Part shown: positions 1,794 to 53,886 of the stretch, piece after piece | Layout of the letters: each line of letters opens with the position of its first letter | Position numbering within the stretch: the first letter of the stretch is position 1 | NCBI RefSeq assembly: GCF_030733385.1 | Contig: NZ_JASHJC010000007.1 | Location: 124,001 to 188,000 of the forward strand | Direction of reading: 5' to 3' | DNA: 64,000 bases | Source: Roseovarius sp. MMSF_3359 | GTDB lineage: Bacteria; Pseudomonadota; Alphaproteobacteria; Rhodobacterales; Rhodobacteraceae | The notes under the pieces: generated by a model | What the model was told of the DNA's origin: nothing | The model's input: only the letters and a program-made list of their open reading frames with translations | Databases searched by the model: none | Program-made: the position numbers and the translations under genes

Positions 1794-3008
1794 ATGCCGA
1801 CCGAACGCCTCACCTTCACGGGTCACGATGGCAGTACCCTTGCCGCCCGTCTGGATCTGCCCGAAGGCCCCCTTCTGGCCACCGCCCTCTTTGCGCATTG
1901 CTTTACCTGTTCCAAGGACATCCCCGCCGCCCGCCGCATCGCGGCGCGCCTAGCCGGAGCAGGCATCGCGGTGCTGCGGTTTGACTTCACCGGACTGGGC
2001 CATTCCGAAGGCGAATTCGCCAACACGTCCTTCTCCTCCAACATCCGTGACCTGGTCCTCGCGGCAGAGGCCCTTGCCGAGCGCAAGATGGCGCCCAGCC
2101 TTTTGATCGGCCACTCCCTCGGTGGCGCGGCGGTGCTGGGCGCGGCCGGCGATATCGACAGCGTCAAGGGCGTGGTCACCATCGGCGCGCCCTATGATCC
2201 CGGTCACGTCACCCATAATTTCGGCGACGCCCTGGCGGAGATCGAAACCGAAGGCACGGCCGAGGTGATGTTGGGCGGGCGCCCCATCCGCATCGGTCAA
2301 GGGTTTGTCGAAAACGTCAAGGCAGAAAGCCTGACCGACAAGATCGCCAACCTGCACCGCGCCCTCCTGGTGCTGCATGCCCCGCGCGACGCGACAGTGG
2401 GCATCGAAAACGCCGGCGAAATATTTAGCGCCGCCAAGCACCCCAAGAGTTTCGTGACTCTCGACAACGCCGATCACCTGATAACCGATCCCACCGATGC
2501 GGAATACGCCGCCGAGGTGATCGCTGCCTGGGCCACGAAATACCTCGAACTGCGCCCCCCCGCACCGCCCCCCGGCGCGCCCGAAGGGATCGTTTGCGTG
2601 TCCGAGGCCGATGCCGACGGCTTCCTGCAGGATATCAATTCCGGCCCGGATCATCACACCTTGGCAGATGAACCGCTCGCCTATGGCGGGACCAATCGCG
2701 GCATGTCGCCTTATGGGTTCCTGTCGGCGGGTCTCGGGGCGTGTACCTCGATGACGATCCGCATGTACGCCCGCCGCAAGGGCTGGCCGCTCGATCATGT
2801 GCAGGTGGCCGTCAGCCATGACAAGGTCCATGCACAGGATGCCAAGAGCGGCGGCGGAAATGCCCAGGCGGATACGTTCAAACGGGTCATCAAGCTCACG
2901 GGCGACCTCAGCGACGAACAACGCGCGCGGCTCTTGGAAATCGCGGATAAGTGCCCGGTCCACCGCACGCTAGAGCAAAGCTCGACCATCATCACAGAGG
3001 CCGGCTGA
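1794..3008 (+). CDS. bifunctional alpha/beta hydrolase / OsmC family protein
   Basis: A 404-residue two-domain protein. Residues 1-250 are an alpha/beta hydrolase with the nucleophile elbow GHSLGG (about residue 105) and a late His in DNADHLI that can complete the triad. Residues 260-404 are an OsmC/Ohr-type domain, with the first redox Cys in GLGACTSMTIRMYARRKGW and the second in KCPVHRTLEQS. OsmC proteins reduce organic hydroperoxides with these two cysteines. The fusion suggests a hydrolysis step coupled to peroxide detoxification, for example of peroxidised esters, but that is inference. AAGGACG precedes the ATG. The same fusion is known in other proteobacteria, so it is not an assembly artefact. 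Confidence 0.88.
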   Translation: MPTERLTFTGHDGSTLAARLDLPEGPLLATALFAHCFTCSKDIPAARRIAARLAGAGIAVLRFDFTGLGHSEGEFANTSFSSNIRDLVLAAEALAERKMAPSLLIGHSLGGAAVLGAAGDIDSVKGVVTIGAPYDPGHVTHNFGDALAEIETEGTAEVMLGGRPIRIGQGFVENVKAESLTDKIANLHRALLVLHAPRDATVGIENAGEIFSAAKHPKSFVTLDNADHLITDPTDAEYAAEVIAAWATKYLELRPPAPPPGAPEGIVCVSEADADGFLQDINSGPDHHTLADEPLAYGGTNRGMSPYGFLSAGLGACTSMTIRMYARRKGWPLDHVQVAVSHDKVHAQDAKSGGGNAQADTFKRVIKLTGDLSDEQRARLLEIADKCPVHRTLEQSSTIITEAG

Positions 3009-3056
3009 GTTATCGACACCTCACGAGAGGCTGCATTGCGGACAAAGCAGACCTTG

Positions 3057-3241
3057 GATCGCCATTGAAACAAAGGGCAGCGCCCGATCGCGGGTGGGCG
3101 CACTTAGATGGTTCATGGCGCTTTATGGTGACGTGTACATCCAACGATAGTTGGGATTGAGACGGCGACGAAGCGCCCGCCCATGGGGCGGTCGGGCGCT
3201 GCCCGGCGGTGCTGCGCACCTTGATTCCGGGCGCGGGCAAT
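3057..3241 (+). repeat. dispersed structured intergenic repeat, copy A
   Basis: A 185-base element matching 42121-42305 with about 20 substitutions and no gaps in my hand alignment. The left arm 3075-3091 pairs with 3188-3204 (17 bp, one G-T wobble). The inner arm 3092-3101 pairs with 3173-3182, with a 5-base bulge between the two stems on the 3' side and a loop of about 71 bases. A second small hairpin follows, GGTGC-tgc-GCACC at 3208-3220, then the conserved box TTGATTCCGGGCG. It lies between the convergent 3' ends of the hydrolase-OsmC gene and acnA. Function is unknown; candidates are a mobile miniature element, a terminator/RNA-processing element or a structured RNA. Confidence 0.8.
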
Positions 3242-3268
3242 GTCCGGTTTGCGCCCCAACCAAAATGT

Positions 3269-3298
3269 CAAAAGCCCCGCGTGATGCGGGGCTTTTTC
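3269..3298 (-). terminator. bidirectional Rho-independent terminator
   Basis: A hairpin AAAGCCCCGC-gtgat-GCGGGGCTTT is flanked by A and T runs on both sides. It lies 18 bases beyond the acnA stop codon and also downstream of the hydrolase-OsmC gene and repeat copy A. The stem is GC-rich and perfect. Either strand gives a stem followed by a U-tract, so it can end both convergent transcripts. Confidence 0.85.
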
Positions 3299-3315
3299 GG
3301 TGCTTGAGTTGTTCC

Positions 3316-6003
3316 TCAGGCGGCTTTGGCGAGGTTTCGGAGCACGTAATGCAGCACCCCGCCATGTTTGATGTAGTCGATCTCGATCGCCGTATCGATC
3401 CGGCATTTCAAGGTGATCTCCTTGACCGATCCGTCTGCCATCTTGATCGTGCAGGGAACCTCCTGCAGCGGCTTGATCGTATCAAGACCCGAGATCGACA
3501 CCTCCTCTTCGCCGGTCAGGCCAAGGGATTTGCGGGTGTCGCCACCGGTGAACTCGAACGGGATCACCCCCATGCCGACGAGGTTCGAACGGTGGATGCG
3601 TTCGAAATTCTCGGCGATGACCGCCTTCACGCCCAAAAGCGCCGTGCCCTTGGCCGCCCAGTCACGTGACGAGCCCGCGCCGTACTGCTCGCCGCCAAAG
3701 ACCACCAGTGGCGTACCATTGGCCTGATGCGCCATCGCGGCCTCATAGATCGAGGTCTGCTGACCATCGGGGCCTTTGGTGTAGCCACCTTCAACGCCGT
3801 CGAGCATCTCGTTCTTGATGCGGATATTGGCAAAAGTGCCGCGCATCATCACCTCGTGGTTGCCACGACGGGAGCCATAGGAGTTGAATTCGCGCACCGG
3901 CACCTGACGATCGGTCAGGTATTGACCGGCGGGCGTGGTGTCCTTGAACGAGCCTGCGGGCGAGATGTGGTCGGTGGTGACCATATCGCCCAGAAGCGCT
4001 AGAACACGGGCGCCTTCGATGTTTTCGATCGTGCCGGGCTCCTTGGACATGCCCTGGAAATAGGGCGGGTTCTGAACATAGGTCGATTGCGGCGGCCAAT
4101 CGTAAACCTCGCCTTCGGACGTCTCGACGGCGCGCCATTTTTCGTCGCCCTTGAAGACATCCGCGTATTTTTCCTGGAATGCCTCACGGGTCACGGTTTT
4201 TTCGACCAGTTCGGCAATCTCCGCCTGGCTCGGCCAGATATCCTTGAGGTAGACATCCTTGCCGTCCGGCGTCTGCGCGATCGGGTCAGAGGCGAGGTTG
4301 ATGTCCATGGTGCCGGCCAGCGCATAGGCCACGACCAGCGGCGGCGAGGCCAGGTAGTTGGCGCGCACATCCGGGCTGATCCGGCCCTCAAAATTGCGGT
4401 TACCCGACAGGACCGATGTCGCCACCAGGTCGCCCTCGGCAATCGCCTCTGAAAGCTCTTTCTGGATCGGACCGGAGTTGCCGATGCAGGTGGTGCAGCC
4501 ATAGCCCACGAGGTTGAACCCGATGTTGTCGAGGTCGTCCTGCAGCCCTGCCGCTTCAAGGTAATGCGACACGACCTGCGAGCCGGGCGCAAGCGACGTC
4601 TTGACCCAAGGCTTGCGGTCCAGTCCCAACGCCGCAGCCTTGCGCGCCACCAATCCCGCGCCGATCATCACGTAAGGGTTCGATGTGTTGGTGCACGAGG
4701 TGATCGAGGCGATCACCACGTCACCGGAGCTCAGCGTATAATCCTCGCCCGCGACGGGGACTTCCTTGTCCATCGGACGTTTGAAGGTCTCCTTCATCTC
4801 GCGATTGAAGGCCTCTTTCGCATCGGTCAGGGCCACGTAATCCTGCGGGCGTTTCGGACCGGAGATTGCCGGGACAATCGTCCCCATATCGAGATGCAGC
4901 GTATCGGAGTAGACAGGTGCATAATCCGCATCGCGCCAGAAACCGTTTTCCTTGGCATAGGCCTCGACCAACGCGACGCGATCCTTATCACGGCCCGTGC
5001 TGGTGAGATAGCGCAGGGTTTCGTCGTCAATCGGGAAGAAGCCGCAGGTGGCGCCGTATTCCGGGGCCATGTTGGCGATGGTCGCGCGGTCCGCGAGCGG
5101 CAAGTTGTCGAGACCCTTGCCGTAGAACTCGACGAATTTGCCGACAACGCCGCGTTCGCGCAGCATTTCAACGACTTTCAACACGAGGTCGGTGCCGGTG
5201 GTGCCTTCAACCATCGCGCCGGTCAATTCGAACCCGACCACTTCGGGGATCAGCATGGAAATCGGCTGACCGAGCATGGCGGCCTCGGCCTCGATCCCGC
5301 CGACACCCCAGCCAAGCACTGCCGCGCCGTTGACCATTGTGGTGTGGCTGTCGGTGCCCACCAGCGTGTCGGGATAGGCGACTTCTTCGCCATTCTGGTC
5401 CGTATCGGTCCAGACGGTTTGCGCCAGGTATTCCAGGTTCACCTGGTGGCAGATGCCGGTGCCCGGCGGCACCACGCGGAAATTGTTGAACGCGCCCTGC
5501 CCCCATTTGAGGAACTGGTAGCGTTCCATGTTACGCTCATATTCGCGATCCACATTCATCTGGAAAGCGCGGGGGTTGCCGAATTCGTCGATCATCACCG
5601 AGTGGTCGATCACGAGGTCAACGGGGTTGAGCGGGTTGATCTGCTGCGCGTCGCCGCCAAGAGCCACGATCCCGTCGCGCATCGCGGCGAGGTCCACGAC
5701 CGCCGGAACGCCGGTGAAATCCTGCATCAGCACGCGGGCGGGGCGATAGGAAATCTCGCGCGGGTTCTTGCCGCCTTTTTCGGCCCATTCAGAAAAGGCC
5801 TTGATGTCATCGGTCGTCACCGTGTTGCCGTCTTCGAACCGCAGCATGTTTTCCAGCACGACCTTCAAGGCAGCAGGCAGGCGGGAGAAATCGCCAAGGC
5901 TCGCAGCCTCGGCCGCGGCGATGGAATAATACGACACGGAGGCGTCGCCTACACTCAGGGTCTTGCGGGTTTTGGCTGTATCCTGTCCGACAACAATAGG
6001 CAT
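3316..6003 (-). CDS. acnA: aconitate hydratase A
   Basis: An 895-residue aconitase, the usual AcnA length. It isomerises citrate to isocitrate through cis-aconitate in the TCA cycle. Visible [4Fe-4S] ligands are the Cys of [16 protein letters not shown] and the two in [13 protein letters not shown]. The substrate-binding [11 protein letters not shown] and the C-terminal swivel-domain motif [22 protein letters not shown] are intact. I start at MPIVVGQD (ATG at 6003), with AAGGAAGG just upstream; an extension to 6111 would run into the promoter region. It is divergent from the DUF1223 gene. In many alphaproteobacteria acnA sits next to the ccm genes, as here within a few kb. Confidence 0.97.
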
Positions 6004-21084: not shown

Positions 21085-21562
21085 GATGTCCCCCCTTGGA
21101 CCGGTTGTCCCGGCTTGTGCGGCAAACATCGACCACAACCAAGGGCTGCGTCAAGGTAAGGGAAACCGGAAAAGCGGGATTTCGAGCCGGGCATGTCGAA
21201 ATCCTCACGCGGCCCGTTGGCGAGGGGATGCGAATGGTTGGTTCCGGCTTATTGACAGGATGCGGGTGAGATCTGGCCTGCGGACAAAGCGGACGGTTGA
21301 GAGCAAGCCGCGGGAGCGCCAGACCGCGGGATGGCGAACTTCCTGTAGTGGAATGCACTTTACCTTAGCCAAGTCCGAAAAACCTCAATTCGTTGCGCAA
21401 CCTCTCCAAATCGCCAGCCCTTGCGGGCGGTCTGGCGATCGCGCGGCGGCGCTGCGCGCCTTGATTCCGCGCGGGGTTCGAACTCAACTGACTGCTTTGG
21501 GCTCGAGTACGACCAACACATTTCGCCGAATCCGAATGGCGGGCATGGCTGTCCCGCTGCCT
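21085..21562. other. intergenic region der / DUF2235
   Basis: This 478-base spacer on the 3' side of der contains repeat copy C (21278-21478). The remaining sequence (21085-21277 and 21479-21562) has no ORF I would support. Because both neighbours run on the minus strand, the repeat sits in the 3' region of der and upstream of the DUF2235 gene. Confidence 0.45.
21278..21478 (+). repeat. dispersed structured intergenic repeat, copy C (diverged)
   Basis: It shares layout with copies A and B but much less sequence. It opens with CTGCGGACAAAGCGGAC (compare TTGCGGACAAAGCAGAC just upstream of copy A). The outer stem CGCCAGACCGC (21317-21327) pairs perfectly with 21427-21437. The inner stem GGGATGGCG (21328-21336) pairs with 21412-21420 with one mismatch. 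A six-base bulge, then the small hairpin GGCGC-tgc-GCGCC (21448-21460) and the box TTGATTCCGCGCG follow. Where it differs from A and B in stems, both partners have often changed, so structure is kept. Confidence 0.65.
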
Positions 21563-40391: not shown

Positions 40392-42035
40392 ATGGCACGC
40401 TTTATTTTCATTACCGGTGGCGTTGTTTCTTCCCTCGGAAAAGGGCTGGCCTCGGCCGCCTTGGGCGCGCTTTTGCAGGCGCGCGGGTTCTCCGTCCGGC
40501 TGCGTAAACTCGACCCCTATCTCAACGTCGATCCCGGCACGATGAGCCCGTTCGAACATGGCGAGGTGTTCGTGACCGACGACGGGGCCGAGACCGATCT
40601 CGATCTTGGCCATTACGAACGGTTCACCGGCGTACCCGCGCGCATGACCGACTCGGTCAGTTCGGGCCGCATCTATTCCACCGTGCTGGAGCGTGAACGC
40701 CGCGGCGATTACCTCGGCAAAACCATTCAGGTGGTCCCACATGTCACCAACGAGATCAAGGAATTCATCTCGATCGGTGAGGATGAGGTCGATTTCATGC
40801 TCTGCGAAATCGGCGGCACCGTGGGTGACATCGAAGGCCTGCCGTTTTTCGAAGCCATCCGCCAGTTCAGCCATGACAAGCCGCGCGGCGAGTGCATTTT
40901 CATGCACCTGACCCTACTGCCTTATCTGGCAGCGTCGGGTGAATTGAAAACCAAACCGACGCAGCACAGCGTCAAGGAATTGCAATCCATCGGCATTGCG
41001 CCCGATATCCTCGTCTGTCGTTCCGAACAGCCGATCCCGGACAAGGAACGCGAGAAGATCGCGCTTTTCTGTAACGTCCGCAAAGAAGCCGTGGTGGCCG
41101 CCTATGACCTCAGTTCGATCTACGAAGCACCGCTCGCCTATCATCGCGAGGGCCTCGATCAGGCCGTTTTGGATGCGTTCAACATCTCGCCTGCGCCGCA
41201 GCCGAACCTCAGCATCTGGCAGGATGTCTATGACCGCATTCACGTGACCGATGGCGAGGTCAACGTGGCGATTGTCGGCAAATACACGCAGCTTGAAGAT
41301 GCCTATAAGTCGATCAAGGAGGCCCTGACCCATGGTGGCATGGCCAACCGCGTGAAGGTCAATGTCGAATGGGTCGATGCCGAGATTTTCGACACGCAGG
41401 ACCCCGCCCCGCATCTCGAAGGCTTCCATGCGATCCTTGTCCCTGGCGGTTTTGGCGAGCGCGGCACCGAGGGCAAGATCAAGGCGGCCGAGTTCGCCCG
41501 CACCCATAAGATCCCCTATCTGGGCATTTGCCTCGGCATGCAGATGGCCGTGATCGAGGCCGCCCGGAACGTGGCCGACCTGCCCGATGCCGGCTCTGAG
41601 GAATTTGACCACGAGGCCGGGGAAAAGCGTTTCACTCCGGTGGTTTATCACCTCAAGGAGTGGGTGCAGGGCAACGAGAAGGTCAAGCGCAAGGTCAGCG
41701 ACGACAAGGGTGGTACGATGCGATTGGGCGCCTATAACGCTACGCTGGCCGAAGGATCAAAGGTGGCCCAGGTCTATGGGACAACGGCGATTGATGAGCG
41801 TCACCGCCACCGCTATGAGGTCGACACCAAGTACCGCAAGGCGCTGGAAAAACAGGGGCTGCAGTTTTCCGGCATGTCGCCGGACGGCCGCCTACCCGAG
41901 ATCGTGGAATGGAAAGATCACCCTTGGTTCATCGGCGTGCAGTTCCATCCGGAGCTCAAGTCGAAACCCTTTGAGCCGCACCCGCTCTTTGCCGATTTCA
42001 TCCGCGCTGCGGTCGAGACGTCAAGGCTGGTCTGA
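40392..42035 (+). CDS. pyrG: CTP synthase
   Basis: A 547-residue enzyme of normal length that aminates UTP to CTP using glutamine. The synthetase domain begins [20 protein letters not shown] (P-loop region). The glutamine amidotransferase half has the nucleophile Cys in [14 protein letters not shown] and the His/Glu of [17 protein letters not shown]. It forms a tetramer or filaments in the cytosol. Repeat copy B lies 85 bases beyond its stop. Confidence 0.97.
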
Positions 42036-42120
42036 AAGACGCTTTCACGTGAGTTTTCAAGCGTTGGTTCAGGACTACAAGCTGTCAGAGATGGCCGTAA
42101 AGCGAACATAGCAGCCCTTC

Positions 42121-42305
42121 GATCACCATTGAAACAGAGGGCATCGCCCGACCGCGGGTGGGCGCACCCACGTGGTTCATCGCACTTTATGGTGACGCAT
42201 ACCTCCAACAATCGCTGGGATTGAAACGGTGACGAAGCGCCCGCCCATGGGGCGGTCGGGCGCTGCCCGGCGGTGCTTCGCACCTTGATTCCGGGCGGGG
42301 GCAAT
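42121..42305 (+). repeat. dispersed structured intergenic repeat, copy B
   Basis: The closest relative of copy A (same length, about 20 substitutions). The outer stem 42139-42155 pairs with 42252-42268 with one mismatch; the wobble pair of copy A is here a C-G pair. The inner stem 42156-42165 pairs with 42237-42246. The small hairpin GGTGC-ttc-GCACC (42272-42284) is followed by TTGATTCCGGGCG. Like copy A it lies between converging 3' ends (pyrG and the next minus-strand gene). Confidence 0.8.
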
Positions 42306-42420
42306 TTCCTCGGAGTACTCGAAACGGTCGTTGCACTTCTTTGACACACAGACGTTGAAGGCGTACGACCTCCTGCGTTACCGCGTATCGACGATCCAGT
42401 GGCGGTCCGGTTGGCGGCGT

Positions 42421-43002
42421 TCAACCTCTTTCGGACGCGGGTTCGGGTTCGTCGTCGATCACCCGCTTGGTCGCCAGATCGATTGCCGGGCTGAGGATAT
42501 CCATCAAGAGGTTAGGCTGCTTTTGCTCCTCTTCCGGCACCTCGAGGCGCAGCGTGTCGTTCAGGAGAGGTTCGAGTATGCACTCATCAAGCTGCCAGCG
42601 GCCTACACTGCCCTCATCGCGGTCAAATGCCTGGTAGGCGACCCATTTGGTGATGCGGCGCCGGTCGCTTAACGGGCTGTTGGGGTCCGCAAGGTAAAAG
42701 CCGCTGTTGAGGCGTTGGCAGATATTGTCCAGAAGCCGCACAACGCCACGATAGCCCTCGGGGATGTCACGCTTAGGCATGTAGTTGAACCGCTCCGGCT
42801 CGCCGTTCAGAAACACCGTTAGCGCGGTACCGAGATCGACGCATTTCTGCGCCATGATCCACCCGAGCACCCGTTCGGGATGTTGGAACCAGCTATATTC
42901 CCTGGCCAGCGCGCAGATCTGATCCGCGCTGCCCAAACGGGCCATCGCAAGGTGCTCATCGGCACTCCCCTGGTGCCAGTCGAAATTCTCGAACTCTTGC
43001 AT
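42421..43002 (-). CDS. uncharacterised soluble protein
   Basis: A 193-residue acidic protein starting MQEFENFDWHQGSADEHLAM. The ATG at 43002 is preceded by GGAG at seven bases; longer readings are GC-rich spacer. A conserved-looking core is FQHPERVLGWIMAQKCVDLG followed by TALTVFLNGEPERFNYMP, which faintly recalls DUF4274-type proteins (cells being counted off by position and status), but I would not assign it. No signal peptide or membrane segment. Confidence 0.7.
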   Translation of the reverse strand: MQEFENFDWHQGSADEHLAMARLGSADQICALAREYSWFQHPERVLGWIMAQKCVDLGTALTVFLNGEPERFNYMPKRDIPEGYRGVVRLLDNICQRLNSGFYLADPNSPLSDRRRITKWVAYQAFDRDEGSVGRWQLDECILEPLLNDTLRLEVPEEEQKQPNLLMDILSPAIDLATKRVIDDEPEPASERG

Positions 43003-53800: not shown

Positions 53801-53886
53801 TGGTGCGGTCGAGAAGACTCGAACTTCCACGGGTTTTACCCCACAGCGACCTCAACGCTGCGCGTCTACCATTCCGCCACGACCGC
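53801..53886 (-). tRNA. tRNA-Leu (anticodon GAG)
   Basis: The 86-base gene folds as a type II tRNA. The acceptor GCGGTCG pairs with CGACCGC; the D arm includes GGAATGGTAGACGC; the anticodon stem CAGCG/CGCTG encloses TTGAGGT with anticodon GAG; a long variable arm carries TGGGGTAAAACCCG; the T arm is GGAAG-TTCGAGT-CTTCT. The 3' CCA is encoded. The long variable arm and GAG anticodon give leucine (CUC/CUU codons). Confidence 0.95.

Follow-up and report, generated by a model that had tools for sequence, protein, structure and literature searches.

The 185-nt sequence at positions 3057–3241 of the analyzed window (a 64,000-nt stretch, C35:124001–188000 of the source genome, G000) belongs to a large and apparently unnamed family of structured intergenic elements, which occurs in two thirds of the sampled genera of Rhodobacterales, a major marine bacterial group, and in many cases reaches tens of copies per genome. 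It is probably a new REP/BIME-like, non-autonomous family confined to Rhodobacterales, and we infer its mobility, in which copies would spread as a folded single strand. The element can adopt two covarying folds and could therefore show whether bacteria retain extragenic hairpins because they move, because they serve RNA processing, or for both reasons. Its mobility, if real, would point to a mobilising enzyme other than RAYT. In the annotation of Rhodobacterales genomes, many intergenic gaps can be attributed to this element.

The covariance model detected the element in 100 of the 150 genomes of the bacterial family (one genome per genus), with at most 19 copies tallied per genome in this survey, and fuller counts in five other genomes gave 64, 43, 30, 17, and 12 copies. 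According to genome BLAST, the source genome carries about 20 full-length copies at unrelated sites (identity 82–90%) and about 20 or more partial copies, most of which keep the 3′ part (query positions 115–180). In a class-wide sample of 192 genomes, matches were found only in the source genome and in one member of the same family, with none in other alphaproteobacterial families. When 84,980 species genomes were scanned for an exact pattern, at least 111 stretches matched, and among the matches listed all titles were those of Rhodobacterales, except for one unplaced ‘Alphaproteobacteria bacterium’. The element is carried by plasmids of Pseudosulfitobacter, Leisingera, Salipiger, and others; a phage origin was rejected because a search of 50,697 phage records yielded nothing. 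The element corresponded to no Rfam 15 family above the gathering threshold in the scan of the window, and an E-value scan with copy A returned sub-threshold matches only. The sole Rfam match in the window was a tRNA at 53804–53886 (minus strand). No description of the element was found in the open literature, with ISfinder, RepBase-type collections, and the subscription literature lying outside this comparison. Thus, as judged against Rfam 15 and the open literature, the family apparently has no counterpart among catalogued RNAs and repeats.

Copies A (3057–3241) and B (42121–42305), reported as a repeat in the preliminary description, were 89% identical over 185 nt (genome BLAST), and the repeat proved to be larger than was stated there, since within the window it extends without gaps as a direct repeat from 3029 to 3245 and from 42093 to 42309 (217 nt, identity 87%). 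Copy C, which had been listed as diverged, genuinely belongs to the family (covariance-model score 129.7 bits) and represents a second sequence type, or subfamily, whose arms are altered jointly relative to those of A and B (CGCCAG for CGCCCG and GCGCGG for GCCCGG). The conserved cores, all on the plus strand, were located at 3068–3232 in copy A (model positions 1–168; match L001:1512–1676, 148.3 bits), at 42132–42296 in copy B (L002:1512–1676, 149.5 bits), and at 21303–21472 in copy C (L026:1395–1564). As described earlier, copies A and B are each flanked by converging genes, namely, 1794–3008 (+) and 3316–6003 (−) for copy A and 40392–42035 (+) and 42421–43002 (−) for copy B, while the codon-usage gene caller placed copy C between two minus-strand genes. 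The stem of copy A had z = −6.25, and none of 200 shuffles was equally stable. A terminator-like hairpin (AAAAGCCCCGCGTGATGCGGGGCTTTTT), separate from the element, is situated directly 3′ of copy A at window positions 3268–3305.

The covariance model R1 (168 positions) was built from A1, an alignment of 34 copies from several species, in which the conserved core is about 165–170 nt long and consists, in order, of arms a, d, and e, the central region, arm f, a bulge, arms g and b, a small hairpin, the unpaired TTGATT, and arm c. All features of the preliminary description were recognized: the two-part stem, the 71-nt central part, the hairpin with a triloop, and the box TTGATTCCGGGC. In copy A (plus strand), arm a (3075–3079, GGGCA; GCCGCGCG or GGGCA in the family) pairs with b, being 96% paired at the variable column with 54 double changes. 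Arm d (3080–3091, GCGCCCGATCGC) pairs with g (3188–3199, GCGGTCGGGCGC) in the long stem, where 96% of cells are paired and 10 of 12 pairs show double changes, and arm e (3092–3101, GGGTGGGCGC) pairs with f (3173–3182, GCGCCCGCCC), with 93% paired and double changes in six pairs; d:g and e:f together form a 22-bp two-part stem (12 nt each in d and g, 10 nt each in e and f). Arm f can also pair with g as a local hairpin, so that g has two possible partners, d and f. Arm b (3200–3206, TGCCCGG) is complementary to both a and c and shows three-way covariation (G-C-G in 41 copies, C-G-C in 38, T-A-T in 11). It is followed by the triloop hairpin GGTGC-TGC-GCACC (3208–3220; 99.8% of cells paired, double changes in four of five pairs), the unpaired TTGATT box (3221–3226), nearly invariant in A1, and arm c (3227–3232, CCGGGC), whose pairing with b reaches 99.7%. 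The central region (3102–3172) was previously described as a 71-nt loop; its length is correct, but in A1 this region of about 70 nt contains a weak helix (GCAACG:CGTTGC) and an invariant TTTAT, located at about 3122–3126 in copy A. Short variants of about 75–90 nt have this region deleted. In copies L017 and L019, the outer part of the g arm gives way to some 40 nt of additional sequence, which itself contains a hairpin-like stretch.

The arms allow two mutually exclusive folds, one combining d:g, e:f, and a:b in a long stem that encloses a loop of about 70 nt and the other consisting of the local hairpins f:g and b:c (with a weaker d:e), in which TTGATT is bulged out of b:c, and the aligned sequences provide covariation that backs both predicted folds. 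In A1, 18 of 39 pairs had changes on both sides, a number reached by none of 500 shuffles. In A3 (99 copies), compensatory changes affected 27 of the 39 pairs; both sides had changed in 501 cells vs. 188 in shuffles (0/500 shuffles reaching this value), and 89.5% of cells were paired in the given structure compared with 37–44% in slid structures. It should be noted that the fitting of A3 to the model biases it towards the given structure, whereas A1 was not so fitted. Among the inner d:g pairs, which are specific to the long stem, columns 21:151 showed all four Watson–Crick types and were paired in 98% of copies vs. 46% in shuffles. The outer f:g pair was formed in 99 of 99 copies (GC 41, TA 57, AT 1), whereas at the same position d paired with g in 84% and e with f in 91%; consequently, selection seems to act on the local hairpin as well. 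In arm b, column 163 matched a in 96% of copies and c in 99%. The covariance-model search thus yielded many intergenic matches across Rhodobacterales, overwhelming covariation, and no Rfam counterpart, which supports the readings suggested at the outset (miniature mobile element, 3′-end element, or structured RNA family); the position at gene 3′ ends and the high turnover described below are likewise in keeping with them.

Mismatches within the helices were strand-asymmetric. In d:g, e:f, b:c, and the small hairpin, 64 G·T and 12 A·C mismatches were counted (one poorly paired e:f column excluded), and when each genome and pair was counted once, the numbers were 48 and 12, respectively; the model search slightly favours G·T, although the counted matches were far above the threshold. 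The excess of G·T over A·C indicates that the TTGATTCC (top) strand is the folding strand, either as RNA or as single-stranded DNA.

The copies are located predominantly at the 3′ ends of genes. Among 96 copies placed with the codon-usage gene caller, 46 were in convergent, 46 in tandem, and 4 in divergent spaces, and a gene 3′ end adjoined 92 of them; this tally combines the source genome with other genomes and pools several species and some adjacent copies, which leaves the counts not fully independent. Intergenic spaces of at least 150 nt in the window comprised 9 divergent, 8 tandem, and 6 convergent ones. Of four copies on annotated plasmids, three were between converging genes. At tandem sites, 20 copies were in sense and 26 in antisense orientation; therefore, a transcript of the neighbouring gene would not contain the sense strand for many of the copies. 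No U run followed any hairpin in the alignments of the source-genome copies and A1, and a plain intrinsic terminator was rejected because of the missing U-tract and the occurrence of both orientations at tandem sites.

Comparison of copies within and between genomes, and of orthologous sites in close relatives, revealed considerable turnover. Similarity within a genome was mostly higher than between genomes (0.85 vs. 0.62 for G172 and 0.82 vs. 0.62 for G068, but not for G067), which suggests amplification or homogenisation within lineages; gene conversion could be an alternative source of intragenomic homogenisation. In G019 and G024, which represent two species of one genus, one site was occupied in G019 and empty in G024, another orthologous site carried different subfamilies in the same orientation, two sites had a truncated vs. 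a full copy, and at one site the flank was replaced near the end of the element. Three related plasmids of P. pseudonitzschiae (91–97% identical) had one site with a full copy in one plasmid and an internally deleted copy in two, one site with a second element nested inside the first, and one intergenic site with three different elements of differing orientation (L141:9360, L143:24703, L145:14460). Among close relatives, a given site could thus be vacant, hold a truncated or inverted copy, or carry a member of another subfamily. No fresh insertion flanked by a clean target duplication was observed; the only near-clean empty site, that of G024, had ambiguous boundaries and could also have arisen by deletion. 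At the site of copy A, orthologous acnA ends were identified in 58 of 60 genomes of one genus; no clean empty site was found in the 29 genomes examined, where the gene order downstream differed, and one other species of the genus had a diverged copy of a different subfamily next to acnA. In a related species (L140), CGTC-type REP-like repeats (GGTCGTCCGGTCAAGCCGGACGATGACGGG) adjoin acnA. By comparison, a copy between genes read as cysS and cimA was common to several species of one genus (L041, L043, L048, L049); here, the element seems to have persisted over a long time instead of moving continually.

Mobility would be the cause of the turnover, and a folded single strand the intermediate. According to the proposed mechanism, a trans-acting enzyme other than a standard RAYT would recognise the hairpins and the TTGATT box of the single-stranded top strand, presented as single-stranded DNA or as RNA that is copied back, and would insert new copies into intergenic space; selection would then purge copies from promoters, leaving those at gene 3′ ends. 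By analogy with REP/BIME sequences, the stem at 3′ ends may have an additional effect on transcripts. The search for a mobiliser revealed no partner enzyme. Of 35 genomes, 30 lacked the Y1 transposase (PF01797, RAYT), among them most of those with 16 or more copies, and the PF01797 match of the source genome was a 113-aa IS200-like fragment. Since PF01797 is missing in most high-copy genomes, RAYT is not the general mobiliser, and the RAYT/Y1 transposase was rejected in this role. The top strand was on the lagging side in 49 cases and on the leading side in 20 in three genomes with clean GC skew, whereas a fourth genome with irregular skew had 24 lagging and 31 leading copies; a replication-strand bias of the top strand is therefore suggestive only and is not claimed. 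Orientation clustering was significant in the source genome only (p = 0.01). A stronger version of the mobile-element reading can be put forward tentatively, and we lean against it: the element would be a bistable hairpin module in which the alternative folds (a:b vs. b:c and d:g vs. f:g) are both required for propagation, constituting a new class of mobile elements in most Rhodobacterales genera, mobilised at the replication fork or via RNA by an enzyme unrelated to RAYT.

The main rival, which may also coexist as an added role, is a 3′-UTR RNA element, the top-strand fold of which would protect or trim mRNA 3′ ends or mark Rho-dependent ends where genes converge, with selection acting site by site and occasional recombination providing the spread. 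The location of copies at 3′ ends, the strand-asymmetric tolerance of G·U, the maintained structure, and the cysS–cimA site common to several species are consistent with such a role. However, the mixed orientation at tandem sites (20 sense and 26 antisense) makes it unlikely to be the sole reason for the strand asymmetry, the acnA-side copy has a counterpart, of a different subfamily, in only one other examined species of the genus, and turnover between strains is strong; as a complete explanation, we therefore consider it unlikely.

Two short hairpins, FL (loop GCGGAC) and FR (loop GGGCTC), frame the core in the source genome, and the unit is therefore nearer to 3029–3268. In copy A (plus strand), FL (GCTGCATT-GCGGAC-AAAGCAGAC) occupies 3029–3052 within the left flank conserved among source-genome copies, and FR, which is degenerate (AATGTCCGGTTTGCGCCCCAACC...), occupies 3239–3268 according to the alignment of these copies. 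The absence of terminal inverted repeats noted at first thus holds for the family core and not for the extended element of the source genome, with its GCGGACA/TGTCCGC flanks. If these flanks were terminal inverted repeats, the element could be a MITE of a conventional DDE insertion sequence, and the framing of the core by GCGGACA/TGTCCGC-type sequences fits this, as does copy L155 (G000:C32, near 302381), whose core is inverted relative to both framing hairpins. However, the frame, present in many source-genome copies, is not family-wide and is lacking in many other species, FR also stands without a core at L150 (G000:C11:328951) and L152 (G000:C22:134120), no target duplication was seen, and covariation of the folds is not expected of a plain MITE, so that this origin is improbable. 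The lone FR has the form TCCGC-N3-GGGCTC-N2-AGCGG and may be a separate short repeat, since it is also found alone. The strand of L155 is the same as that of the other copies on its contig. Tandem copies of the element in the source genome have a conserved linker in common.

Still less probable is a family of genes for trans-acting small RNAs, each with its own promoter, that has multiplied by duplication. The strand asymmetry and the strong, RNA-like covariation speak for this reading, whereas no conserved upstream region was evident in the alignments across genera, the copy number is very high, and turnover is high.

Ends of the IS200/IS605 family and their non-autonomous derivatives have top-strand hairpins with unpaired conserved bases. 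The element resembles them in this respect and in a possible lagging-strand bias, but it has no associated TnpA or TnpB, and no defined cleavage site or ends were seen. Bacterial MITEs (RUP, Correia/NEMIS, ERIC) are small, non-coding, multicopy, intergenic, and hairpin-forming. The element shares all of these features; in contrast to MITEs, it lacks terminal inverted repeats common to the whole family, no target duplication was observed, and its stem letters are swapped wholesale with compensation. The HRC-8-4 RNA motif, a terminator-like single stem tied to cco operons of Rhodobacterales (PMC8632094), is likewise structured and restricted to this order, whereas the element is dispersed and has another architecture; identity with HRC-8-4 was rejected, since the latter is a single stem that is cco-tied and not dispersed (PMC8632094). 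REP, BIME, and REPIN sequences are palindromes tagged with GTAG and CGTC (PMC3733652, PMC3116915). The least credible reading, a known REP/BIME family mobilised by RAYT, agrees with the hairpin pairs folding singly or together and with the 3′-end location, as in REP dimers (PMC3733652), but not with the lack of a GTAG or CGTC tag among the invariant columns or with the missing Y1 transposase. Such tags, as defined for REP sequences (PMC3733652), were found in neither the invariant nor the near-invariant columns of A1. The element further differs from REP/BIME/REPIN sequences in its core of about 168 nt with three covarying hairpins and a TTGATT box, in having no RAYT in most carriers, in being seen here only in Rhodobacterales, and in the bistable strand swap of a, b, and c. 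The likeness to these sequences lies in dispersed extragenic hairpins in tens of copies, paired units that fold singly or jointly, a bias towards convergent and unidirectional spaces, and G–T pairs in the stems. REP dimers, which fold singly or jointly and are located in convergent and unidirectional spaces (PMC3733652), appear by analogy to be the most similar to the element in their way of working.
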